Source: a virus
Virus record (IMG/VR): IMGVR_UViG_3300035190_000419
Location: 1-24,075 of that record
DNA length: 24,075 nt
Direction: 5' to 3' (one strand)
In this document: positions 5,255 through 18,497 of the stretch, piece by piece
How the letters are laid out: every line of letters begins with the position of its first letter
How positions within the stretch are numbered: the stretch's first letter is position 1
Translations under genes and position numbers: made by a program
The notes under the pieces: model-generated
What the model saw: only the letters and a program-made list of their open reading frames with translations
What the model was told of the DNA's origin: nothing
Databases searched by the model: none

Positions 5255-5938
5255 TTATGGTTGATCGTTTTCTATGTCGAGAATATTTGCTTCGATGTAA
5301 TTTATGACATTGTGTTGTTTTACTGGACCGTATAGATTTATCTTTGCGGTAAATGTCATATCCCACATTATGAACCTATTGTTTTCGCTGACAAGCGGTC
5401 CTTCGAATGATTCTTCTGTTGTCACTTGTGTTAAGATGATAGGTATGTCTAGTTTTTCTTGTTCATTACCAAGAACGCCTGGTTTGATAGTCATACTGAA
5501 CTCTGGAGTAAAGTACGGCAGTATCTGCTCCACTATCTGAAGTCCATCATCCATATTTCTAACATAAGTGGATAATGTCATATCTAGATTATAAGGGACA
5601 GGCATATGGTGATAGGAATATTCCGTATCGCCATTTGTGTTCACAGTTTCCATATATCTTCTGTTTATGCTGTTCTTCTTTCTTTCGGCATCGTAAGAAA
5701 TACTAGTAATCGCAAAAGACATTCTTGGTAGAGTGATCTGCACTGCCTGATTGCTGAGATCTGCCAAACTGACACTCAAACGATTTATGAACTTTTCCTT
5801 TACAGAATATGTAAGAGGAACCTTTATTCTTTGGGAAACACCATTTGGTATTTCTCTATTGATATGAATATTGTTAAACAAAGTACCGAATGATACTACT
5901 GTCTTTCTTATTATTCCGTGGTAAAAGTCAGTAAACAT
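5255..5938 (-). CDS. 15: Tail completion and sheath stabiliser protein, T4 gp15-like
   Basis: This protein caps the finished tail: in T4 a gp15 hexamer sits on the last sheath and tube rings and provides the face that joins the head's neck. It is 227 residues (T4: 272). The N-terminus MFTDFYHGIIRKTVVSFGTLFNNI is strongly characteristic of the family (FYHG-I-RK, then FG-LFN-I), and is followed by RIKVPLTYSVKEKFINR and the conserved LPRMSFAI segment (about residues 70-77). The C-terminal half carries PVPYNLDMTLSTYVRNMDDGLQIVEQILPYF (given here in two parts: PVPYNLDMTLSTYV and NMDDGLQIVEQILPYF), typical of the gp15 beta core. Its ATG overlaps the gp14 stop by one base (TGATG), with GGAAGG about 9 bases upstream. 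The order 13-14-15-16-17 matches T4 apart from the inserted orphan. Confidence 0.94.
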   Translation of the reverse strand: MFTDFYHGIIRKTVVSFGTLFNNIHINREIPNGVSQRIKVPLTYSVKEKFINRLSVSLADLSNQAVQITLPRMSFAITSISYDAERKKNSINRRYMETVNTNGDTEYSYHHMPVPYNLDMTLSTYVRNMDDGLQIVEQILPYFTPEFSMTIKPGVLGNEQEKLDIPIILTQVTTEESFEGPLVSENNRFIMWDMTFTAKINLYGPVKQHNVINYIEANILDIENDQP

Positions 5939-6630
5939 CAGTAGTTGCCTTCCGAGAATGGATCAACTTCTGTAAAATCTAGAAGCGATGATGCATTTTG
6001 CTGAATGATAGTGTTGTCCTTTATGGTCTTACCATCCTGTATTGCGTCAGGTGTTCCATCGCCATCTTCGTCTATCAAAGACACTATGTTGTCTTCTATT
6101 ACATCAATATCCGATACACCTGTGTCGATCTCTTCCATAGAATACTTGAAGAGTTCACAATCTAATCTATATGTGTACAGTTTTCCACCTTGAAAGAATA
6201 CCTGTTTATTATCCACATATTTGATCTCGAACAGACCTTTAGATAGTGGGAAATAAATCAGATCACCCATCATAGGTGCTTCTAGTTCTATTGGTCGATC
6301 TGCCATAGTAGGAACTTTTGCTGCTTCCTGTTGAAACCTTTTCTTTGCAACAACCAAAGACATATTATCACGGACCTCTATGCCAAACTTGGAGACAATT
6401 TCTCTTTCGCCTTCAAATCCGTTGAATGTTTCCAGATACATTTCTATCGGAAAAGAAACATCAAAATGTGAAAGAACATCCTCACCAAAAACTTGATCTA
6501 GTTTTCTAAATCTTCTTGGGATGTAATAAACATCCATACCCTTGCTCTTGATGGATTCGATCATAAGATCCTCCATCAAATCCTGAGTAGGTGAGTATTT
6601 GTTGTTATTGAAGTATGGGTTTGTAGCCAT
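5938..6630 (-). CDS. 14: Neck protein, T4 gp14-like
   Basis: This head-completion protein, with gp13, seals the portal after packaging and forms the collar to which the tail attaches. It is 230 residues (T4: 256). It begins MATNPYFNNNKYSPTQDLMEDLMIESIKSKGMD (seen as YFNNNKYSPTQDLMEDLM and SIKSKGMDVYYIPR), the conserved gp14 N-terminus, followed by LDQVFGED and PIEMYLETFNGFEGE (about residues 61-75). The C-terminal third is acidic and includes DEDGDGTPDAIQD (residues 187-199), a pattern like the calcium-binding loops of EF-hand or thrombospondin type 3 repeats. The C-terminus DFTEVDPFSEGNY resembles other gp14 tails. The ATG is 2 bases after the gp13 stop, with only a weak GGAT ahead, so translation is probably coupled to gp13. 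Confidence 0.94.
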   Translation of the reverse strand: MATNPYFNNNKYSPTQDLMEDLMIESIKSKGMDVYYIPRRFRKLDQVFGEDVLSHFDVSFPIEMYLETFNGFEGEREIVSKFGIEVRDNMSLVVAKKRFQQEAAKVPTMADRPIELEAPMMGDLIYFPLSKGLFEIKYVDNKQVFFQGGKLYTYRLDCELFKYSMEEIDTGVSDIDVIEDNIVSLIDEDGDGTPDAIQDGKTIKDNTIIQQNASSLLDFTEVDPFSEGNY

Positions 6631-6632
6631 TT

Positions 6633-7451
6633 TTATCCAACAAAGAAGTTAGGTGGAAGTTCGTATTTGTTTTGTACTTGCTGCTCAAGTTCTTTGATAT
6701 TTTCTCTAGCAGACGAAAGTATCTCACCGCCATTAAGTGTTACACCGCCTGGTAGAGACACATTATTAAACTTGGATAGGTTCATACCCCACTGTTCCTG
6801 TATTCTGTATGTGCAGTATTCTTTTAGCAAACGATCATTAAATATTTCACCATATGTTTCTGGATCAAGAACCCTGTACGCTTCGAACATCATATAGTTT
6901 CCAATAACTGGATGTGTTTCCCAATCCATATCCACATATATTCTGTTCGTCACTCTGCTGAAAGTCACTGCTTTTTCTGGTGTAAGCATATCCTGCAACA
7001 TCTGCATATGTGATCTGGTAAAGTTGTATGAAATCAGAGAATCGCTATATGTGTTGGTTCTCAAACCGTAAAGATCGTTTAGAGCAATCTGGTAGCGAGC
7101 ATCAAACATACCCGTTCCACCGAGAGTATCGTACAATTGAAAACAACGAATGACGCTTATGATTGATTTGCCATTAGGATCCAACGCTGGAGCCGCCTCT
7201 ATTCCTTTAGAGGGGTCTGCCAGCGTTGGTAGAGTCAAGTCGATATACTTTTGATCTATATCTTCTTGAGTTATTTGTTTTCTCAAATAGCATCTTTCCA
7301 CACCATCAAAGTGGTATTCGGCAAAGAACTGCAAGGCATCGTCTATTCTATCCTCGATTTGTGCATCGTCTATATTGATCTCGATGACAGGATAGCCAAG
7401 TCTGCGTAGGCAGTATTGCTTCAGTTGCTCTCTGGTTTGTGGTTGTGCCAT
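6633..7451 (-). CDS. 13: Neck protein, T4 gp13-like
   Basis: This head-completion protein binds beneath the portal and with gp14 stabilises the packaged head. It is 272 residues (T4: 309). Characteristic segments are REQLKQYCLRRLGYPVIEIN (residues 7-26), IEDRIDDALQFFAEYHFDG (32-50) and YIDLTLPTLADP, all seen in T4-type gp13 proteins. The middle holds the DLYGLRTNTYSDSLISYNF and MDWETHPVIGNYMMFEAYR regions, and the C-terminus ends PPNFFVG. The ATG at 7451 is preceded by AAAGGAGAACAA, a strong Shine-Dalgarno at good spacing. A TATAAATA late-promoter octamer sits just upstream, so this gene may head a neck-to-portal transcription unit. It begins 45 bases after the 117-residue gene. Confidence 0.94.
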   Translation of the reverse strand: MAQPQTREQLKQYCLRRLGYPVIEINIDDAQIEDRIDDALQFFAEYHFDGVERCYLRKQITQEDIDQKYIDLTLPTLADPSKGIEAAPALDPNGKSIISVIRCFQLYDTLGGTGMFDARYQIALNDLYGLRTNTYSDSLISYNFTRSHMQMLQDMLTPEKAVTFSRVTNRIYVDMDWETHPVIGNYMMFEAYRVLDPETYGEIFNDRLLKEYCTYRIQEQWGMNLSKFNNVSLPGGVTLNGGEILSSARENIKELEQQVQNKYELPPNFFVG

Positions 7452-7496: not shown

Positions 7497-7850
7497 TCAG
7501 TCGCGGAAAAGGAACTGGATCTTGGTGATCTCCGATACAGAAAGTTCTACATTTCCCAGAGAGTCGATGGAAATTGGATCCCAATCCACATCTATTTCTG
7601 TTTCTAGAAGTTCGCTAAACTCCTTGAGAAAATCCTCCTTGTGTTTCTCCAAAACAGAAACAACTCCTTCTTTCTCTTCTCCGTACTTGTTAATCAACTT
7701 CTGTCGTTCTTCTTCTAGCATCTTAAGTTCGTCATTAAACTTCTTCATAATTTTCACAAACTTGTATGACGATTTAGCAGGAAGCGCCAAATCTACCAGT
7801 TTGTTAAGGACACCAACAGACGAATAAATCTCAAATAAACTCACTTTCAT
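7497..7850 (-). CDS. Small coiled-coil protein of unknown function downstream of the fibre gene
   Basis: This encodes 117 residues starting MKVSLFEIYSSVGVLNKLVD. The centre (about residues 29-85) is highly charged and helical (KIMKKFNDELKMLEEERQKL), predicted to form a coiled coil. It is followed by a short acidic beta-like tail with WDPISIDSLGNVELSVSEI. The layout, an N-terminal pair of short helices with LALPAKSSYKF and then a long helix, recalls small DUF1617-like phage proteins, but I cannot confirm this. It has an excellent Shine-Dalgarno (CTAAGGAGATTTTATAATG) and starts 20 bases after the fibre gene. In T4 this position is held by wac (fibritin), another coiled-coil protein, but there is no visible sequence similarity. 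A fibre chaperone or fibre-attachment protein is possible by position only. Confidence 0.75.
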   Translation of the reverse strand: MKVSLFEIYSSVGVLNKLVDLALPAKSSYKFVKIMKKFNDELKMLEEERQKLINKYGEEKEGVVSVLEKHKEDFLKEFSELLETEIDVDWDPISIDSLGNVELSVSEITKIQFLFRD

Positions 7851-7869
7851 TATAAAATCTCCTTAGTTG

Positions 7870-10800
7870 TTATGCTTGGATTGACATCTTATGTAGGGTG
7901 ATGCTGAATGTTCCCTGCATACACTTGTTGAGCACTATACCTACTTCGGTAGAAGATAGTGCTTGATATGCACCACTGGGACAAGCAGGAAGTTGTTCGA
8001 CTCCTCCTAAAGCACCTTCACCTATTGTTGGCAACATAGCGACTACTCCAGATGTTTCAAAATCAAATATAGTTCCAAAACCAGGAACCATGCTGTTTAT
8101 GATTTCTAAACTTCTAAAATCATTTCCATTTATCAGTACATTAAATTCGACTACACCACAATTAGATGGATCGCTTGTATCTTGTATGTACATGAAGTAT
8201 TTTATTGCTTTTTCTGTTGTTGTGGTAAAGTCGATTATATCCAAATAACCATTAGTCAAAACACCTTTACCAGTTATGACTCCAACGGAAGGTAGAGTTA
8301 TAGTGCCACTTTTTACTCTATAGAATCCAGATTTGACTGTAGATTGTAACTTCAGAGCACCAGAAAAATCATTACTCTCCACATTTATAGTGATGTTCTT
8401 ATCAGAAGCGGTTATTGTCTTGCTAGCAAGAAGAATGTCAGAATTAAACTGCACTCTTGTGGATCCAGATGTAGGAATGGTTCCCGTAGTGACAGAACCA
8501 GAAACAAGTATCAGGTTTCCTGTAGTGTTGTTTGTGATGATGCCTGTATTATTGCCATCAAATCTAAAAGCACAATAGTTTGTGTTTGATGGACCAGTTA
8601 TTCTTACATCAAAATTGGCCGCTGCTGTTTGTATTGCTAGGTGTTTATTTGCGGCAGTAGGACCTATGGTGACAATACCAGCAATACCACTTTCAAATGT
8701 TATGTTTTTTGCTCCTGATGTAGATGTTGAACCCGTCAATCCCAAAGAAGTTGCTGATCTTACTGTCGGGGAAGTACCAGATATAAGAACTGCTCCTCCT
8801 CTAAGTGGTTGCAATCCTAAATCTACAGAAACAGTTGCTTCGCTTGTCGCACAACTTATAGTGGGAACACCTGTACTACTAGCACCAGAAGATATTGTAA
8901 AATGTCTGGTGTTTCCAGTAGCAGAAGAAAACGCTAGAATATTACTTCCTGCTCGTGTAAAACTAAATGTAGATACATCCAAATTACCTCCCAAAGAAGG
9001 AGCAGTGTCGGAAGAAACAACTGTCTGGCTACTTACTGTGAAAGTGGATGTACCTGTTCCTGCATTGTATGACGGAACAACTGTAGTTCTTTGTCCTGCT
9101 GCCACCGAAAGTACATGGGGTCCATTTCCTGTTACGGCAACATTTGTAGATCCGTTTGATATTACAGTATAATATGGCAAACCGTTAGTAGTGCCAGCAA
9201 CCTCTCTAAGTGTTGCGCTACACAGAGAACCGTTTCCTTGTCTGTATAGAAGAGAGTTTAAACCAAGTTGTAGATTTGCCGCAGCATATCCAGTTACTTC
9301 GTTTCTGGTGGTAGATGTTGCTGTCGTATTACCACCAAAAGCAGCAATGTTATTTGCTGTTTTTATAGTTCCTTGGGGCATCAGTGCAAGATCAAAATCT
9401 ACTCTTATATTTCTTCCGTCAACTGTAGGAACCAGATCTATATTTTCGTACAACGAACCACTAATAGGATCAGAAGGATTTACCAATCCAATAGTCAAAC
9501 TGGAAGCATTATCTAGTTGAACATCACCATTTACACCTATGTCAGTAACAGTAATTCTGTTCAAACCACCAGTAGAACCACCAGCGGAACTAATACTGTA
9601 TGTGTTGGTAGAACCAACTCTGGTTATACTGATATTGTCTCCTTCTTGCAGAACAAATGTCTCATTCGAAGAACTTGCTGTTATTTGAGAACCAGACACT
9701 TCAGAACCAGTAGCATTGTTTATCTTTATGCTCTTGAAGTAATTACTGGAAGTTAATCCAAGTATTTGCTTGACTTCGCTAGAGGTCAGCGATTTGATGT
9801 TTTGCCCAGTAATTCTTCCAAGAATTTGATTTTCACCGATCAAGAGATCTATTGGATTTGGATCATCGGTATTGTTTATGCTAGCCTTTACCGTATTTAC
9901 TGGCATATTTGCAAGCATATTGTTTGTTATAGACTCGGGTTTGATGTAGAAAACCAATCCAAGATTGGTGCTTACATCTACACCAACAGCATCATTGTCG
10001 TCTATTTCTATTACACCAGCAGTTTCTCCTGTTGTGAAGAAATCTCCAGTTCTAGTGTTTATTATGTTCTGAAAACCACCAGCAGTATCCGCAGCATCTA
10101 TACGAATACCGATTTCATTATCTGGTCCAACCGCAACTACTCTAGACAGAGATATGTTGTTTCCTTCAACAAAAATCAATTTTCCATTTTTTGCGCTGGC
10201 AGTTGTTTGGTTTATTTCAGTTTGTTTATCTGATTCATACAAATACCAAGAATTGAATAAATTGGAATTCTCTTCCAAGAATCCTGATGGTGCCGCACCT
10301 ATTATACTTCTAAGTTCTTGTCTTCCTAAAGTTGTTATGTTTGATACTTGACCTAATTCATTGACATAACGACCAAAAACATATCCAGCAATTTCCGTAG
10401 GTGGAGCCCAAGCAAGAACGGTGTTTCCAGAAACACTCTGAACACTTGTGTATGTGTCTAAAGTTACATCATCTGTGTAGATTTTAGGATCACCAAAATC
10501 ACCAGTACCGCTTACAGTATAACTTGTGGAAAGACTACCAGTAACATCGTAAATATCAATCGGTCTTCCGTTTGATTGTGCTCCCTTAATGCTAAAAGGA
10601 ATCATATCATCCAGTTTATCGTTTGTGATGGAACCATTTGCAGGAACAGATAATCCAGTTGCTTCGATCAATATGTCATTGTTTGTTCCTGCTGTTATGC
10701 TTATACCAGTTCCAGAACGCAGATATAGAATATCGTTTGCATTTTCAGCCTCTAGAGTGTAGTCCAGTTCATTTGTATCCATTCCTATGATCTGAATACT

Positions 10801-12444
10801 AGAATAACTGTTTGCACCAGAGATAAGCAGGTTTCCACTTGCTGCTAAAGTGCTGATGCCATTTTGACCAATTATATTTGCAGTATCTTCTCCCGAAGCG
10901 GTAATGGAACCAGAATTTCCAGTGATTGTCTTGAAATAATCTGCCTGCGATAGTGAAGCAGCACTTATTTCAATTTCATTATTTGTGTTCTTCTCTATAG
11001 TGATGTTTGCGCCTGGAATCAAAGTCAGGGTGTCTGCTACACTATCAGCATCCACCAGTGCTCCACCAGAAATTTGAACATTGGCAAAAGAGGGACTAGA
11101 TGAAGACGCAGATGAATTTATAGAACCTAAAGTAGAACTCAAAGCAACATATACTGGTTTGACTATTCCAGATGTTGGCTTGGTGGTTGTAACTTTGCCT
11201 GGATTGGATTGTGACAGATAGTAAGTGGAACCAGAAGTCAATCCTGTAGTATCAAATACACCAGTAAGTGCAATCCATATCTTTCCGCCTGTCAATCTTT
11301 CAACAACACCAAAAATTTGAGAATTAATTTCGGAATTTGCCTGTGCTCTTACAAATTGTGTTCCATTGAAACGAACTACATCACCAACAACGATAGATCC
11401 TTCGAAAGATGTTGAAGTATGACGATTGGTGTATTTGTAATCAACTATACCGTTTGTATTTGTCAGTGGAACTTTATATTGTGAATAATCTGAAGAGATC
11501 AAGAATTGAGAAGAATCCTCAATATCTTCGATGTATATTCTCCCTCCAACATTGAAAAGAACATATCCACCAGAAGTATCGTATTTTCCATAGAATAGAG
11601 GAACTCTAGTTCCTGCTGTGTCTGTAAAAGAGAAATCAATAGCATTTGTAGCATCAATTGCTCTAATGGTTATTGCTTCATCAATATCAGTGGTTATGAT
11701 GTCTGTAGTTCTGGTTCCTAAGAGAAGATTCAATTCTGTGTTTGTCTGTGTAGCACCTTTTGGACTAAAATTGAATTTTGCTATTGTGCTTCCAGTTGGT
11801 CCTAGTGATACAAATGCCTGATCGTAGGATAGACCTATGTTCTGATTTGTATACCAAGCCAAAAGATCTCCTCTGTAAACAAACAAAGGATCTTCGTCCA
11901 AAGCATCAATTCTAAAACCAACAGAAGAGATACTCGATCTGTTTGTGGAAGAAACATCACCTATTTTAATAGAACTGGATTTTAGATGGGTGTTTGAAGA
12001 GGAAACTGTAAAATTAGTAGAGGAAAAAAGATTGCTGGAAGTTGCTCCACCAACAAAATCGTGATCTCCCGCAACACTATAAGGAAGTATATTGGTTGCT
12101 TCTACTCTTCTGAATGTCTCACAATCTGTAGCATCTGTGGTTACATTTGTGCTATTTCTCAATTCTATAATATAGTTGTCTTCCTCATGTGGCACTGTTT
12201 TTTCTGGAAGATTCTGTATGTCTAAAGTCAAAGAAACATTTGCATCATGTCTCAGTCCACAACCAACATTCACACTCAAGACAGCAACTCCGCCAGTAAT
12301 ACGAGAAATGCTTATTCCTGGTCCAGCAGAAACATCATAGATGTTCAAAGGATTAAGTGCGTTGGAAATGTCATTGGTGACTTCCCACCAGTTATAGAAA
12401 GTGTCACTTAATTTTAGTTGTGGAATTGGATCAAAAAGGCTCAT
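7870..12444 (-). CDS. Large fibre-like virion protein with repeats
   Basis: This encodes 1524 residues rich in Ser, Thr, Asn, Gly and Ile, the composition of trimeric phage fibres. It is probably a host-contact fibre. The N-terminus (SLFDPIPQLKLSDTFYNWWEV) may be the virion-attachment part. A recurring beta motif of the type L-x-x-G-x-N/G-I-S/T-I then about ten residues then I-x-I appears near residues 37-59, 470-494, 570-598, 753-785 and 927-954. There are two copies of a YFK-S/T-I segment (near 503 and 902) and two short I/L-I/L-G joints (RSIIGAAPSGF, KQILGLTSSNYF). The later part has SDTAPSLGGNLDVSTFSF, a motif common in cyanophage tail fibres. The C-terminus (about the last 130 residues) looks globular, with CPSGAYQALSSTEVG. 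The ATG directly follows the TAA of the 70-residue gene, with GAGG upstream. I see no lyase or autoproteolytic chaperone motif. Confidence 0.8.
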   Translation of the reverse strand: MSLFDPIPQLKLSDTFYNWWEVTNDISNALNPLNIYDVSAGPGISISRITGGVAVLSVNVGCGLRHDANVSLTLDIQNLPEKTVPHEEDNYIIELRNSTNVTTDATDCETFRRVEATNILPYSVAGDHDFVGGATSSNLFSSTNFTVSSSNTHLKSSSIKIGDVSSTNRSSISSVGFRIDALDEDPLFVYRGDLLAWYTNQNIGLSYDQAFVSLGPTGSTIAKFNFSPKGATQTNTELNLLLGTRTTDIITTDIDEAITIRAIDATNAIDFSFTDTAGTRVPLFYGKYDTSGGYVLFNVGGRIYIEDIEDSSQFLISSDYSQYKVPLTNTNGIVDYKYTNRHTSTSFEGSIVVGDVVRFNGTQFVRAQANSEINSQIFGVVERLTGGKIWIALTGVFDTTGLTSGSTYYLSQSNPGKVTTTKPTSGIVKPVYVALSSTLGSINSSASSSSPSFANVQISGGALVDADSVADTLTLIPGANITIEKNTNNEIEISAASLSQADYFKTITGNSGSITASGEDTANIIGQNGISTLAASGNLLISGANSYSSIQIIGMDTNELDYTLEAENANDILYLRSGTGISITAGTNNDILIEATGLSVPANGSITNDKLDDMIPFSIKGAQSNGRPIDIYDVTGSLSTSYTVSGTGDFGDPKIYTDDVTLDTYTSVQSVSGNTVLAWAPPTEIAGYVFGRYVNELGQVSNITTLGRQELRSIIGAAPSGFLEENSNLFNSWYLYESDKQTEINQTTASAKNGKLIFVEGNNISLSRVVAVGPDNEIGIRIDAADTAGGFQNIINTRTGDFFTTGETAGVIEIDDNDAVGVDVSTNLGLVFYIKPESITNNMLANMPVNTVKASINNTDDPNPIDLLIGENQILGRITGQNIKSLTSSEVKQILGLTSSNYFKSIKINNATGSEVSGSQITASSSNETFVLQEGDNISITRVGSTNTYSISSAGGSTGGLNRITVTDIGVNGDVQLDNASSLTIGLVNPSDPISGSLYENIDLVPTVDGRNIRVDFDLALMPQGTIKTANNIAAFGGNTTATSTTRNEVTGYAAANLQLGLNSLLYRQGNGSLCSATLREVAGTTNGLPYYTVISNGSTNVAVTGNGPHVLSVAAGQRTTVVPSYNAGTGTSTFTVSSQTVVSSDTAPSLGGNLDVSTFSFTRAGSNILAFSSATGNTRHFTISSGASSTGVPTISCATSEATVSVDLGLQPLRGGAVLISGTSPTVRSATSLGLTGSTSTSGAKNITFESGIAGIVTIGPTAANKHLAIQTAAANFDVRITGPSNTNYCAFRFDGNNTGIITNNTTGNLILVSGSVTTGTIPTSGSTRVQFNSDILLASKTITASDKNITINVESNDFSGALKLQSTVKSGFYRVKSGTITLPSVGVITGKGVLTNGYLDIIDFTTTTEKAIKYFMYIQDTSDPSNCGVVEFNVLINGNDFRSLEIINSMVPGFGTIFDFETSGVVAMLPTIGEGALGGVEQLPACPSGAYQALSSTEVGIVLNKCMQGTFSITLHKMSIQA

Positions 12445-12657
12445 TTAGTTCCTCTGTTTTAGCAATTCTCTTAGCAAATTGTTGGTTTCTGATATGTTTT
12501 GCTTAAGATATTTGACTTCTTGTTCTAATTTTATGTATCTCTCTCGTTCTTCTTTTCTTTTCTTTGCAGCAATATAACCTGCTTTATTTGTAGAAAGCAC
12601 GGCTTTGCTGTGTCTGTCTCTTACTATATCTGTTCTGTGTTCAAAGTTTTCTTTCAT
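12445..12657 (-). CDS. Small coiled-coil protein between two giant virion genes
   Basis: This encodes 70 residues: a polar N-terminus (MKENFEHRTDIVRDRHSKAVLSTN, here split as EHRTDIVRDRHSKAV and LSTNKAGYIAAKKRK) then a long charged helix with heptad spacing (YIKLEQEVKYLKQN to NNLLRELLKQ, about residues 41-68). Small phage proteins of this layout, with a DxxSKA-type N-terminus and a C-terminal coiled coil, occur in other T4-like phages and are usually unnamed. Its ATG overlaps the TGA of the 1947-residue gene (ATGA), and the bases upstream are pyrimidine-rich (TTTCTGTCCT) with no Shine-Dalgarno, so it is probably translated by coupling. Its TAA abuts the ATG of the fibre gene. A trimerising adaptor linking the fibre to the baseplate would fit, but this is inference. 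Confidence 0.75.
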   Translation of the reverse strand: MKENFEHRTDIVRDRHSKAVLSTNKAGYIAAKKRKEERERYIKLEQEVKYLKQNISETNNLLRELLKQRN

Positions 12658-15600
12658 AGGACAGAAATCGCTCTCAAATCTCTAATTTTTGGAACATTCC
12701 AGGGACTATCACTGTACAGACACACCTTGATGCAGAATCTGTTGTATGGTGTTTGTGTATCTTGATCCATTTCAAACTCTACTTCTCTGAATTCATCGGG
12801 TCTTTCTGTGAAGAAAGAACCATAATTTGTTACATTTGGAAGAAGTGGTATGTAATTGTATGAATGGAAATCATCGGTGCTTTCACTGTCTTGAACTTTG
12901 GCAAACACCTGTATGTTTGTTCCAACAGGTTTGTTCACGGACAAAACAACTTTCATGTTGCTAGAATCAAAACCGTCTTCCAAAGTCACAACACGACTAA
13001 TATATCTGGCTCTAGGAGTACCTATTGTTATTGGCACAAATGGATCCAATTCACCGTTTGTTGCAGAATCATCGCTCTCTACCAAATTATTGACTGCAAA
13101 CAAACTCAAAGCCTGCATGTCTATGATTGGACATACATCTTTATTTGTAGTTAGAGCATTTATCGTGAGATAGAATGGTTTTTGTGTATCTGGTAGACGA
13201 GTACCATAACTGAATGTATTGAACAATTCTACATTTGTGTTTGGTTCTATAGAAAGAGTGTTGTTTGCACCATTTTGTGATGGTGTTATGATTGCAGTCC
13301 AAGATGTTCTGCAAGAATTGAAATCAACAAACTTACTGTTTATGTTGAACAATTCAAACTTGTTCTCAGTATCAATAGTTTCATTTATCAAAGCAAGTTG
13401 ATAAGGAGTGTTTACAGCAAACTCGCACTTGTTCATTACCATCATCATATCGGAATTTTGATCAGCACTCCATGTACTTGCATTTGCTGATGTGAAGAAT
13501 ACTCCCACATAGGGTTGATTGGTGACCTTTGTATCGCTACCCAAGATAAAATCACCAAGTGTTGCTATGTAAATTTCATATTCACTAGTATCTCCCTTGA
13601 CAATCAGAGAATGTTCGCCAGGAGGAAGATGAATTGGTTGATTGAATTTGAAGTTTGTCTTTACAGAAGCATCCTCTGATACTTGTATTTCACTAGGTAA
13701 TTTAATTACCTTACCGCCTGGATAGATCTTTGTGGAATCTGGATAGCCATTTACCACTGGTCTTACCTGTATTTGGACAGGGAGTTTTGTGGAATCTTCT
13801 GGTTTTCTTGCAAAGAACAAATCCACACTTGAAAGGAAAATGCCTTCTGGGTGCTCGGCTGGATCTACAAAGAAAGTTTGTGCCAAAGGATCATTTCTTC
13901 TTGTCTGTACAACAGTTTGTGTTGTCGTTTCTGTGAAAACACTTGTGTTGCTTATATTTCTTGTTTCTGTTTCTTGGACTGCATCGCTTATTTGGAAACT
14001 TCTGGTAGTTGCTATGGTTTCTTCCATTTCTGTACGAAGACCACTGGCACTATACACAGCAGAACCATAAGTGGATGCTCTTTCTTTGTTGTTTCTTGGA
14101 TCGCTGGTTATTTCAAATTTACGATCTCCAACTCTGAACATACCATCTGGCATTCTGAATTCTATGAAAATGTTTCCGCTTAAATCTGTTTTCAAATCCG
14201 CAGAATCAGCAGTAGCAAAATGAATTCCAGAGGAAGCGCCTTCTAGAATTTCTGAGCCTGGGAATGGTAATTTGTCCGAGGGTGATGTTAGATTGAACAT
14301 GGTAGACATGGAATTGTATTTGTAGCAATACTCTTCCACATTTATACCATCAAAGAAAACATAAACTCTGGTGGAAGGTTTCATTCCTCTTGCAGCAATT
14401 TTTATGTTCTTCTCTCTCATGTAAGGAATCAATCTTACATCAACTACTCTATCTCCCAAAGAGACATCTATAGTAGATGTTGAGAGATTTCTAGTAATAC
14501 TGTTTCTTATTTGTTCCAGTTGTTCGTCAACTAGGAATGTATTGGTGGTAGTGTTTTGTATTGTTCTTTCAGATCTACGACGGCCTATTCTGTGCCATCC
14601 TTCTAGGATGGTTGTTATTGTGTCGCTGTCGATCAAACTGGTACTTCCAGATCTCGATAGAGTTTCCCACTCACCCCACTGTGTTCCGAATGGCGCAAGA
14701 TTGTTGTTGTTGAACGCTGCAACCATCTGATTCCATGCATCATTTTCTCCTGCAAGATTTACATTTACATCTGGTCTTCTAGTGGTAGAAACCCAGTTGT
14801 CCATGCTAGGAACCATCTCCACCAACCCTTCATACTGAATCGTATCGTGTGGTTGAACAGTGATTGCTCTTGTTGCCAGAGGCTGTGCTACAAAAATAGC
14901 CTCGTTGTATGGGAACATGAATATGTCCTCAAGAGGCCCGTTTCTTTGAGAAACAATAGGAATAAACGAAGTTGATCCTTGTGGGTTCTTTATGAAATTA
15001 TTTGAGTGTGTTTTGAAAGGAGGTCTTGCATAACGATTATCAAAATCTACTGCAATATTGTAATCTCTGTTTGTTACATCACCGATTCTGTGACCTTCAA
15101 AATTATCAACAAGAATACCATTCTTAAAACGATCTTCTCCATTTGCATCAAGAACCAACATATCCTCTGCCTTCTTTTCTAAAACAGAAAGAGTGGTGTA
15201 GTATTCTAGTTTTTGAACTCTCTTTTCTATCTTACCGATGTCACGCATTGTGTATCTGCGATTGTCTATCATTTTTGTTCTGATGCTTGATGGTCCAAAC
15301 ACAAAAGGATCTTTCTCCAAGAGATACAGAGACATCGAATTGGGTACATCCGATGGATACTTGGGAGACAGAGATGGTTTGCCATAAAGCAATTCAAATT
15401 TACCATCTTTGGTGAGAATAAGTTTGTCTCTTCTTGGGAGATAGTAAGATGCGGTTATATTATCTGCCCAATCAATGTGAGGAGTAATCTTACCTTCCAA
15501 GAAGAAGTCATCTGTGGAACTCAAAGAATTTGGTCTAAAATCAATGATGGAAGATTCGTGAATTATTTCTCCAGTGTTCTTGCTGTAATAGAAAGGAACA

Positions 15601-18497
15601 TTTATGTTAGAGATAATATTGGATGGATTGTTCGTCTCTACGAAAGATTCTCTTGCAGAAATAGTAGAGGAAACATCGGAGAACTCATAGTATTCATAAG
15701 TTATTTTCAAAGTAAGTTCTGTAGGATTGGTTGTCGTAAATACAGTAGAGTCAATTTCATCATTTGCTCTGACATATCCAGAACCAAGAATCAATCTAGG
15801 TTTACCTATCTTTTGATCTGTTACTCCCGTATCCAATAAGAAAGAGGATACTAGATTTTTTGTTCCTTTTGCTACTTTTCCAGAAGAATCAAGAACATAA
15901 ACAGAAAGAACAGTATTTATTGTTCCTCTCTTTGGATTGGGATAAGATGAACCCATCAATTCCATATAGAACTGTTTGTTGTTTATATCTTTTGTAAGAC
16001 CAGTTATGGTTTCAGTAACTGTCTTCAAAGTTTTCTTTCTGATGTTGGAAGAATTGAATGTTCTTTGTGTTTTGGCAAACAAAGTGACATTAATAACTTC
16101 TCCAGTTGCAAGTGGACCTGGAGCATAAATTACCAAACCATTTGGTGTTCCTGCTTCAAATCCCAATTCGTTATTTGCATATGAAGGATTGCTTCCTTGA
16201 ACTAGAGTGAATGTTTGGCCTGTATCTGAATTGATGGCAAACCAATTTTGATTTTCATCACTCAACAAGAAAGAGTCATTTGGGTCTGCTTCGTCATCGA
16301 CAACCCAAGATAAAGCAGCACTGTTGTCGAAAGTGTGTGTAAAAATTCTTTGCAATTCTATACTTAGAGCAGGAGTTATTACATTCTCAAAAACACTTCC
16401 AGTAGGTAATCTGAAGAACAACTTGTCTTTTGATGGTTCAAAGATAGTGGTTCTTCTTGTGGTTATTGTTTGATTTGTTCCGCTGAAAATTTCTCTTACC
16501 AGATTTCTACCAGTAATAGGGGCAATGTTGATTATGTTTTTTGCTTCATCAACTTCATTATCATAGGATATGCTAGTGACATCACCAAATATAGAATCTT
16601 CCTCTATCAGATTTGTGTCAAACAGATAATACTTGTAAAGATCCTCATCCTCACCAACTTGTCCATTTGGTCCAATAGACACATTACGAATTCTAGTGGT
16701 TCCTATTGTGATTGGAACAGGAAACTCATCTTGTTTGACGAACACATTATTTGTTGCACTCTTTCTGTCGCTAAAGAATACATTAGCACCAGTTACATCA
16801 TATGGCCAATCATCTGCTACATCATCAGTGAGTGACAATCTGCTTTCTGGTATGATCTTTCCGTTGTAAACAAAGTCACCAACTGGTTCGGTTGCAAGAC
16901 CTCCTACCTTGAATGGTTTGAGTTCTTGGAATTGGTTGACATCAATATAGTTTGCTGGTTGTGCTGGTCCAACTTTGTCTATTCTGGCAATCAATACCAT
17001 AGGAGTATTTCCAGGCATTTTTAGATCTGGATAGTTCCAAGCAACTACGGTGGCAGAAGCATAATCGTAGTCAGCAGAGGATCTTATCTGGAATATTTTT
17101 TCTCCTGGCACATAATTATATGTTGGTTCGTATGGTATGCTCAGAGACAGTTTTTGTTCAAGTATTTCTGCATTTGCTGTCCAGTTGGGATTGTAATCTT
17201 GAGCGTATTGATTGTCTAAAGAGTGAGATATGTTTATGAATCTTCCTCTCTTTTGCTCAGACAAACGACTTTCCGATGTTATTGATCTATTTCCCCAAGC
17301 AACATATTCTGAACCTTGAATTTGATAAATTGGACCAAATTCTCTTAACATTGGAGAATTTACATCACACTCATCCATATAGAGAGCACTTGCATCTGGA
17401 ACGAAAGCATAAGGTATTGCTTCTACTCTTGCTGCTTGATTTCCTGTTATTTGACGCCAATTATATTGAAATACCGTAACGGTGTTGCTTGGTATAGTGA
17501 CATCTATTGCTGGAAACGCATTTCCGTCTTCTTTAAAATCAACTCTCTTAAAAGTGTCCGTGAATGCACCGACATCAAACCTATAAGCACCGTCAATTTT
17601 GTAACGGAAACAAGGGTTGCTGTCTTGTTGTTGTGCCGATTCTATAAAATAGATTGTATTAGGATCGCTGTAAGAACTGTATTCCCATTGTCTATCAGAA
17701 CTAAAATGAGGAATAGAAGGATTGGTTGAGGTTATGTGAACATGAGGAAATGCTGCTGGATTTTGTGTCTGTTGTGTCTTTAGAGCAAAAATAAATCCTC
17801 TTGCTACTTCTATACCAGGGCCGGATCCCGTTAATGTATTCAATCTTCGTATTATTACTTCTGTCAACAATCCTGTGCCTGGTATGTCTCCATAATTGTA
17901 TGGAACATCAGAAACTTGACTATTATTGGAATCTGCTGCTTGATTTGAGTTTTCTGCTGGTAATTGAAATTGGTATACCTGCGAAAGGCTCCAAATTTGC
18001 TTTATACTACTACCCCAAGAAGTAGAATGAGATGATGCTGCATCTTCCTGAAAGAAAACACCAGCGTCAGAACCAGTGGCAATAAAAGGTTCTGATGAAA
18101 TCATTTTTAGATAAGCATCGGATTTGTTTGTATCGTTTCCTAGAACAAAACGAACACAATATCCCCTAGCAACGACTTCGCCCAAACGATTGAGTTGTTT
18201 TACAACATATTTTGGTGTAGAAGCATAATCATCAACAAAACCAACATTATTTGTTTTTTCTATAGTAGGGTCATAGGCTTGATAAAAATCTTGATGATAG
18301 CCAGCATCAGAACCGCTCTCTTCCAAGAAAGTAGCCTTGACTATTCCATCTATTGCATCAGAAACCATATGCATTCGGTAACTGGCATTACTGGTCTGTC
18401 CCCCGACATAATTATAGGGGAAAGTTCTACCGTTGCAGGCGCTGATTAATGGTGGTTCTTGCGATGTATAGTATTCTGAATTGAATTGAATAGCCAT
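12654..18497 (-). CDS. Very large virion structural protein (baseplate or fibre-associated, DUF4815-related)
   Basis: This encodes 1947 residues. It sits where T4 has the baseplate wedge and short-fibre genes 9-12 and probably forms part of the baseplate periphery or a fibre base. Landmarks seen in large structural proteins of many myoviruses are ASYYLPRRDKLILTKDGKF; RRYTMRDIGKIEKRVQKLEYY (given as YTMRDIGKIEKRV, near 1081, a short helix); FGTQWGEWET (near 1268); SLGDRVVDVRLIPYMRE (near 1345); RVYVFFDGINVEEYC; and DPLAQTFFVDPAEHPEGIFL (near 1535), followed by a beta-rich C-terminal region with a YEIYIATLG strand. The N-terminal 500 residues (from MAIQFNSEYYTSQEPP) are not familiar. AGGACAACAAATG gives a good ribosome binding site, 23 bases after the preceding gene. 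No signal, membrane segment or enzyme motif is visible. Virion role is confident; exact location is not. Confidence 0.82.
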   Translation of the reverse strand: MAIQFNSEYYTSQEPPLISACNGRTFPYNYVGGQTSNASYRMHMVSDAIDGIVKATFLEESGSDAGYHQDFYQAYDPTIEKTNNVGFVDDYASTPKYVVKQLNRLGEVVARGYCVRFVLGNDTNKSDAYLKMISSEPFIATGSDAGVFFQEDAASSHSTSWGSSIKQIWSLSQVYQFQLPAENSNQAADSNNSQVSDVPYNYGDIPGTGLLTEVIIRRLNTLTGSGPGIEVARGFIFALKTQQTQNPAAFPHVHITSTNPSIPHFSSDRQWEYSSYSDPNTIYFIESAQQQDSNPCFRYKIDGAYRFDVGAFTDTFKRVDFKEDGNAFPAIDVTIPSNTVTVFQYNWRQITGNQAARVEAIPYAFVPDASALYMDECDVNSPMLREFGPIYQIQGSEYVAWGNRSITSESRLSEQKRGRFINISHSLDNQYAQDYNPNWTANAEILEQKLSLSIPYEPTYNYVPGEKIFQIRSSADYDYASATVVAWNYPDLKMPGNTPMVLIARIDKVGPAQPANYIDVNQFQELKPFKVGGLATEPVGDFVYNGKIIPESRLSLTDDVADDWPYDVTGANVFFSDRKSATNNVFVKQDEFPVPITIGTTRIRNVSIGPNGQVGEDEDLYKYYLFDTNLIEEDSIFGDVTSISYDNEVDEAKNIINIAPITGRNLVREIFSGTNQTITTRRTTIFEPSKDKLFFRLPTGSVFENVITPALSIELQRIFTHTFDNSAALSWVVDDEADPNDSFLLSDENQNWFAINSDTGQTFTLVQGSNPSYANNELGFEAGTPNGLVIYAPGPLATGEVINVTLFAKTQRTFNSSNIRKKTLKTVTETITGLTKDINNKQFYMELMGSSYPNPKRGTINTVLSVYVLDSSGKVAKGTKNLVSSFLLDTGVTDQKIGKPRLILGSGYVRANDEIDSTVFTTTNPTELTLKITYEYYEFSDVSSTISARESFVETNNPSNIISNINVPFYYSKNTGEIIHESSIIDFRPNSLSSTDDFFLEGKITPHIDWADNITASYYLPRRDKLILTKDGKFELLYGKPSLSPKYPSDVPNSMSLYLLEKDPFVFGPSSIRTKMIDNRRYTMRDIGKIEKRVQKLEYYTTLSVLEKKAEDMLVLDANGEDRFKNGILVDNFEGHRIGDVTNRDYNIAVDFDNRYARPPFKTHSNNFIKNPQGSTSFIPIVSQRNGPLEDIFMFPYNEAIFVAQPLATRAITVQPHDTIQYEGLVEMVPSMDNWVSTTRRPDVNVNLAGENDAWNQMVAAFNNNNLAPFGTQWGEWETLSRSGSTSLIDSDTITTILEGWHRIGRRRSERTIQNTTTNTFLVDEQLEQIRNSITRNLSTSTIDVSLGDRVVDVRLIPYMREKNIKIAARGMKPSTRVYVFFDGINVEEYCYKYNSMSTMFNLTSPSDKLPFPGSEILEGASSGIHFATADSADLKTDLSGNIFIEFRMPDGMFRVGDRKFEITSDPRNNKERASTYGSAVYSASGLRTEMEETIATTRSFQISDAVQETETRNISNTSVFTETTTQTVVQTRRNDPLAQTFFVDPAEHPEGIFLSSVDLFFARKPEDSTKLPVQIQVRPVVNGYPDSTKIYPGGKVIKLPSEIQVSEDASVKTNFKFNQPIHLPPGEHSLIVKGDTSEYEIYIATLGDFILGSDTKVTNQPYVGVFFTSANASTWSADQNSDMMMVMNKCEFAVNTPYQLALINETIDTENKFELFNINSKFVDFNSCRTSWTAIITPSQNGANNTLSIEPNTNVELFNTFSYGTRLPDTQKPFYLTINALTTNKDVCPIIDMQALSLFAVNNLVESDDSATNGELDPFVPITIGTPRARYISRVVTLEDGFDSSNMKVVLSVNKPVGTNIQVFAKVQDSESTDDFHSYNYIPLLPNVTNYGSFFTERPDEFREVEFEMDQDTQTPYNRFCIKVCLYSDSPWNVPKIRDLRAISVL

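Follow-up and report, generated by a model that had tools for sequence, protein, structure and literature searches.

A probable long fibre of a T4-like phage with ancient hairpin repeats and an exchanged C-terminal tip

Exchange of the distal tail fibre and gp38 adhesin among T-even phages was reportedly described by Tetart in 1998, and fibritin of T4 is encoded by wac, a gene directly before gene 13. Mosaic tail fibres are well documented (PMC10684548). In pelagimyophages and cyanomyophages, the host recognition cluster, a variable region with fibre genes, is always located between VrlC and gp14 (PMC7029224). Here we analyse the whole IMG/VR record IMGVR_UViG_3300035190_000419, a viral DNA of 24,075 bases (the window), and in particular an open reading frame (ORF) for a fibre of 1524 residues. 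The ORF and its coordinates, proposed in a first-pass annotation of the DNA, are upheld by alignment along the whole length with two full-length relatives. The phage is T4-like, and a 1947-residue protein encoded near the fibre is a VrlC homologue. Therefore, the fibre occupies the site of the host recognition cluster of pelagimyophages and cyanomyophages. In addition, the region varies among related genomes, both in the ORFs upstream of gp13, which differ among 80 loci, and in the synonymous profile between the window and one relative (L002). As in the T-even exchange, the distal part of the fibre is swapped between conserved flanks, but the gene and the domain are different.

The relatives come from two scans of IMG/VR. 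The scan with the fibre gives four stretches in three distinct loci, two of them full length (best-segment identity, 61% and 76%) and the third truncated at residue 952. The scan with gp13 gives 110 stretches. The upstream ORFs of the best 80 loci were compared with eight segments of the fibre; the counts are lower bounds, because many loci end short of the fibre. The C-terminal 175 residues are matched in at least six of these loci (L007-L011, L019), and the N-terminal 120 residues in at least 14.

The history of the fibre is mosaic, and the tip forms a cassette with ends that match a domain boundary. The window and L002 are 98% identical in gp13, 93% identical over residues 1335-1380, and 56% identical over residues 1381-1524; the corresponding values for L002 and L008 are 88%, 61%, and 77%. 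For the window and L002, the synonymous distance amounts to 0.31 in gp13, 0.33 over residues 1336-1380, 1.71 (near saturation) over residues 1381-1505, and 0.35 over residues 1506-1524. Synonymous differences take up 60 of 90 sites in the tip versus 71 of 224 sites in the parts of the fibre that flank it (Fisher p = 1.3e-8). Scanning of the site patterns delimits a block at residues 1368-1521, both in the triple with L008 and in the triple with L001, which is reached by none of 2000 permutations in either case. These boundaries agree with those of the modelled domain (residues 1370-1524). L008 and L009, which share the layout, are 84% identical at the nucleotide level up to the tip boundary and 47-54% identical in the next four windows, followed by near-identical sequence at the stop codon and, across the next genes, identity that is mostly 73-89%. 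In four of seven further pairs, the distal end of the fibre is synonymously more divergent than gp13, most clearly in L057-L058 (0.00-0.05 in gp13, up to 0.76 in the distal end). In accordance, the module exchange suggested by the first-pass annotation is supported, through the comparison with relatives and not through the repeats from which it had been proposed.

A second, broader change of blocks is found inside the fibre gene, where the synonymous difference between the window and L002 is 0.53-0.90 over residues 1-460 and about 0.3 from residue 1054 on; in the VrlC homologue it is 0.67. Residues ~270-470 of a further relative (L003:6808-7410) differ from the fibre and contain insertions between well-conserved flanks, possibly another exchanged segment.

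The tip is not conserved even among near relatives, but its last ten residues are. The DNA of the last ten fibre codons and the start of the next gene (window 7825-7905, minus strand) is near-identical in all six close relatives despite their different tips. Four of six columns at the conserved 3' end use one codon (p = 0.027), or nine of 17 if the start of the next gene is included (p = 0.007), a modest excess noted post hoc. A promoter was considered for this stretch and set aside, given this modest excess and the many TATAAATA-like sites that the strand carries (26 with one mismatch). Conceivably, though we would not call it probable, the tip is a natural cassette, with breaks that coincide with the domain boundary (residues 1368-1381) in window/L002 and L008/L009, and the near-invariant last ten codons with the start of the 117-residue gene serve as the second recombination arm, so that one stable fibre would display many tips in uncultured freshwater or marine phages.

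The internal repeats have a different history. The first-pass annotation claimed at least five imperfect copies of a beta motif; repeats are present, but in its strict form, G-x-[NG]-I-[ST]-I, the motif is seen four times, at residues 41, 478, 578, and 935, and a fifth site at residue 761, GNNISL, has L as its last residue. Successive motif starts are separated by 437, 100, 183, and 174 residues. Composition shuffles contain the strict motif 0.05 times on average and twice at most, a null that flatters the motif, as it was derived from the same sequence. The hairpin unit is approximately D-T-L-x-L-x-x-G-x-N-I-x-I, a turn, and N-E-I-x-I-x-A. The duplicated joints of the same annotation also hold in part: YFK[ST] is present at residues 503 and 902 and [DE][LV][RK]xI[IL]G at residues 710 and 890, but they do not form one repeated joint, as I-L-G precedes YFK at residue 902 and not at residue 503, and within the duplicated module YFKSI aligns to NSWYLY. 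Self-BLAST of the whole protein gives no off-diagonal match, likewise in 60 shuffles, probably because matches nested in the full-length one are dropped. Windowed, motif-free Smith-Waterman alignment took its place. Two off-diagonal pairs exceed the maximum of 100 shuffles (73): residues 702-800 with 882-970 (score 87) and residues 414-499 with 510-599 (score 83; core, 464-499 with 564-599). All remaining pairs within the fibre lie inside the shuffle null. At the DNA level, the repeats found are short and of low identity.

To date the repeats, we compared 51 units of comparable length at five unit positions of 11 family members. The best match of a unit in another phage is the unit at the same position in 46 of the 51 cases. 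Units at the same position are on average 50% identical (238 pairs; minimum, 14%), and units at different positions 34% identical within one phage (94 pairs) and 33% identical between phages (943 pairs). This conservation by position indicates that the repeats predate the split of the family, and present growth by duplication, as first suggested, is not supported. Thus, the repeats are real but ancient, and the variety of the fibre comes from tip swapping, not from adding repeats.

The tip was modelled as a monomer from the C-terminal 260 residues with 12 family rows. The mean predicted local distance difference test (pLDDT) score is 60.6, with most strands of the last 150 residues at 70-85. 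The model is a beta-sandwich, which supports the C-terminal globular tip proposed earlier; CPSGAYQALSST, singled out in that proposal, falls in a low-confidence variable loop of the sandwich. The modelled fold resembles residues 169-283 of T4 gp9 (Z = 8.5 over 109 residues; root-mean-square deviation, 3.0) and six further phage tail chains (Z = 8.1-6.4), namely four tailspikes, one tail fibre, and one tail chain of Klebsiella phage KP1; the next match has a Z of 4.9. The predicted tip (residues 1370-1524) is of the kind found in the C-terminal domain of gp9 and in tailspike end domains (PDB 1qex, 6e1r, 5w5p, 8oq0, 6c72), but sequence identity is 4-13%, and here the domain ends a fibre of 1524 residues and carries a long variable loop. 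At E ≤ 0.001, Foldseek of the tip against a viral library gives 35 matches, and the top ones are a virion protein and a fibre-like protein of cyanophages. Among the relatives, the C-terminal domain groups ending KMSI(Q/E)A and (V/F/I)-(Y/F)-R-T are related (hhalign of groups A and B, Prob 97.6, E 3e-12, computed with one wrong row, a wrong ORF for L017 in group B). Most of the CPSGAYQALSST-bearing loop is absent from the latter group, a comparison made with the right ORF. The profiles of groups A and C give no convincing match (Prob 2.2).

In the models of residues 325-992 and 1265-1524, beta structure dominates and helix is almost absent, at low confidence. The middle model (mean pLDDT 53.7) is well predicted only at residues ~344-444, where the fold resembles phage capsid decoration-type chains, a C-terminal fragment of phi29 gp12, and gp8.5. 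The fibre thus appears to embed a decoration-type domain. In searches of sequence families, these residues match no Pfam entry at 0.1 and one PHROG of unknown function weakly (0.0017, in one of 11 rows), and the middle model has no Foldseek match in the PDB at E ≤ 0.001. In a comparison with triple beta-spiral shafts, the N-terminal profile weakly matches three PDB fibre entries at E 0.017-0.13, no single stretch passing. Two of these entries are fibritin-fibre chimeras, but the stretch concerned matches the animal-virus fibre by itself as well. A search for solved shafts with the hairpin profile gives nothing relevant.

We consider it probable that this T4-like phage encodes, in its host recognition cluster, a long fibre with an N-terminal anchor, a beta-rich shaft, and an exchangeable tip that contacts the cell surface. 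The N-terminal module most likely attaches the fibre to the virion. The shaft of anciently repeated hairpins and one decoration-like domain would carry the C-terminal beta-sandwich, and this tip of the gp9 or tailspike-end kind would touch the host cell, with a presumed role in host range. The fibre is presumably a trimer, and homologous recombination between co-infecting relatives would produce the tip swaps.

Other explanations fit parts of these data. An unlikely one is that the protein corresponds to fibritin and serves as a whisker or collar fibre, with a variable C-terminus that tunes the holding of other fibres and does not itself bind the host. It shares with fibritin a fibrous protein gene near gp13 and a modular C-terminus, and the C-terminal modules of fibritin were likewise exchanged (PMC3797505); however, those swaps are reported there as ancient and ceased, whereas the swaps here are recent. 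Fibritin is a segmented coiled coil, unlike the beta-rich (low-confidence) models of residues 325-992 and 1265-1524; a 117-residue gene separates the fibre from gp13; and searches of the fibre against PHROG and Pfam return no family, fibritin included. It is still less probable that the tip diverged rapidly by point mutation under diversifying selection, with no exchange. The tip does have the highest proportion of nonsynonymous differences (pN, 0.31), and the approximately unbiased (AU) test leaves a tree without exchange standing, but a fivefold rise in synonymous distance in the tip, falling again on both sides, is not expected from it, and the grouping of L002 with L008 and L001 is favoured by site patterns inside the block only. 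Least probable is the idea of the first-pass annotation that the fibre is still growing through duplication of hairpin modules: one duplicated module and one hairpin pair do score above all shuffles, but the hairpins keep their positions across the family, copies in the same protein are on average 34% identical, as given above, and long DNA repeats are absent.

Several observations weigh against a host-binding fibre with an exchanged tip as the preferred reading. In a tree of just the tip, a clade of the window and L002 is not rejected (AU p = 0.115 for six rows and 0.346 for five), and three of the seven further pairs lack a more divergent distal end (two are saturated; L036-L056 is contrary). 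The confidence of the tip model is low, as given above, and its Foldseek search finds no PDB match at E ≤ 0.001 (best, 1.7e-3). Furthermore, fibre-like ORFs form a second cluster in the closest relative, at 12.5-24.8 kilobases (kb) of its contig, and this cluster may hold the main host-range proteins. Therefore, the 1524-residue fibre need not be the sole or main determinant of host range. The searches covered eight proteins of the contig, six encoded in the cluster and two at 45-49 kb: six match a PHROG, of which two are named tail fibre and two virion structural protein, and the one Pfam match above the cut-off is not a fibre family. The cluster corresponds to L101:12516-19947 and L102:205-4839, on the contig of L007; several of its ORFs start with an R-x-K-R-G-like stretch, and one has a sub-threshold match to Mtd_N.

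Judged by its sequence, the fibre appears to represent a new family of an established type. In this it differs from described fibres of the host recognition cluster: tblastn of the whole fibre against the phage records searched finds nothing at 1e-5 (two weak matches at E ≤ 10). The C-terminal 153 residues give one match, at chance level. No match is obtained with the L016 and L034 fibres (at 0.01) or with residues 1-500 of the L024 fibre (at 1). The N-terminal profile has no significant match in all frames of the Melnitz and S-SM1 stretches, and with four family profiles no sequence among 16 Melnitz and S-SM1 proteins falls below E 0.012. The Melnitz tail fibre QZI94913.1 has one domain at 2.8e-5 with a whole-sequence E of 0.012, which we treat as a lead. 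In five loci (L021, L024, L026, L046, L053), two ORFs lie upstream of gp13. The first, of 1534-1609 residues, ends in a G-P-P-G-Q-I stretch; the second, of 758-1000 residues, starts with MF(V/I)R and is often the more divergent of the two.

The gene order around the fibre is that of T4-like late genes: a 661-residue DUF4815 protein, the VrlC homologue, a 70-residue protein, the fibre, a 117-residue protein, gp13, gp14, gp15, gp16, and gp17, followed by gp18- and gp19-like ORFs named from gene order, without a family call. The terminase is closest to that of Methylophilales phage Melnitz (60%) and to those of cyanophages (57%). The photosystem family PF00124, a sign of a cyanobacterial host, is found in none of 16 records, which is uninformative as the records are fragments.

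Table 1 Features of the fibre gene and its neighbours in the window
Feature	Residues	Position	Strand	Basis
Fibre ORF	1524 in total	7870..12444	-	End-to-end alignment with two full-length relatives and one cut relative
N-terminal module, probable virion anchor	1-120	12085..12444	-	86-87% identity in two full-length relatives; upstream of gp13 in at least 14/80 loci
Hairpin unit H0	33-64	12253..12348	-	Motif count and position comparison
Decoration-like beta domain	344-444	11113..11415	-	pLDDT 82-88 over most; fold matches Z 9.6-5.3
Hairpin unit H1	471-500	10945..11034	-	Motif, Smith-Waterman, position comparison
Hairpin unit H2	571-600	10645..10734	-	Motif, Smith-Waterman, position comparison
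Duplicated module copy 1, with ELRSIIG and hairpin H3	702-800	10045..10341	-	Score 87 versus copy 2
Duplicated module copy 2, with EVKQILG, YFKS, and hairpin H4	882-970	9535..9801	-	Smith-Waterman versus copy 1
Variable distal shaft	971-1367	8344..9534	-	Over 970-1335, 38-53% identity to L001 and 73-83% to L002
Exchanged tip domain	1368-1524	7873..8343	-	Site-pattern block 1368-1521; synonymous rise 1381-1505; beta-sandwich model
CPSGAYQALSST, in loop ~1447-1499	1488-1499	7948..7983	-	Loop variable; parts pLDDT <50
VrlC homologue (context)	1947 in total	12654..18497	-	phrog_358, DUF4815; E 5e-58 to part of S-SM1 VrlC
Protein between fibre and gp13 (context)	117 in total	7497..7850	-	phrog_1401, family of unknown function
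gp13 (context)		6633-7451	-	gp13 and gp14 assigned by phrog_211; PF11649, phrog_679
gp14 (context)		5938-6630	-	gp13 and gp14 assigned by phrog_211; PF11649, phrog_679

The fibre is an ordinary yet clear case of phages varying the part thought to touch the host. The family is split into domains, and one end of the exchanged piece is located to about ten residues. This makes it directly testable which part of such fibres decides host choice. The case also illustrates that visible repeats need not imply ongoing duplication.

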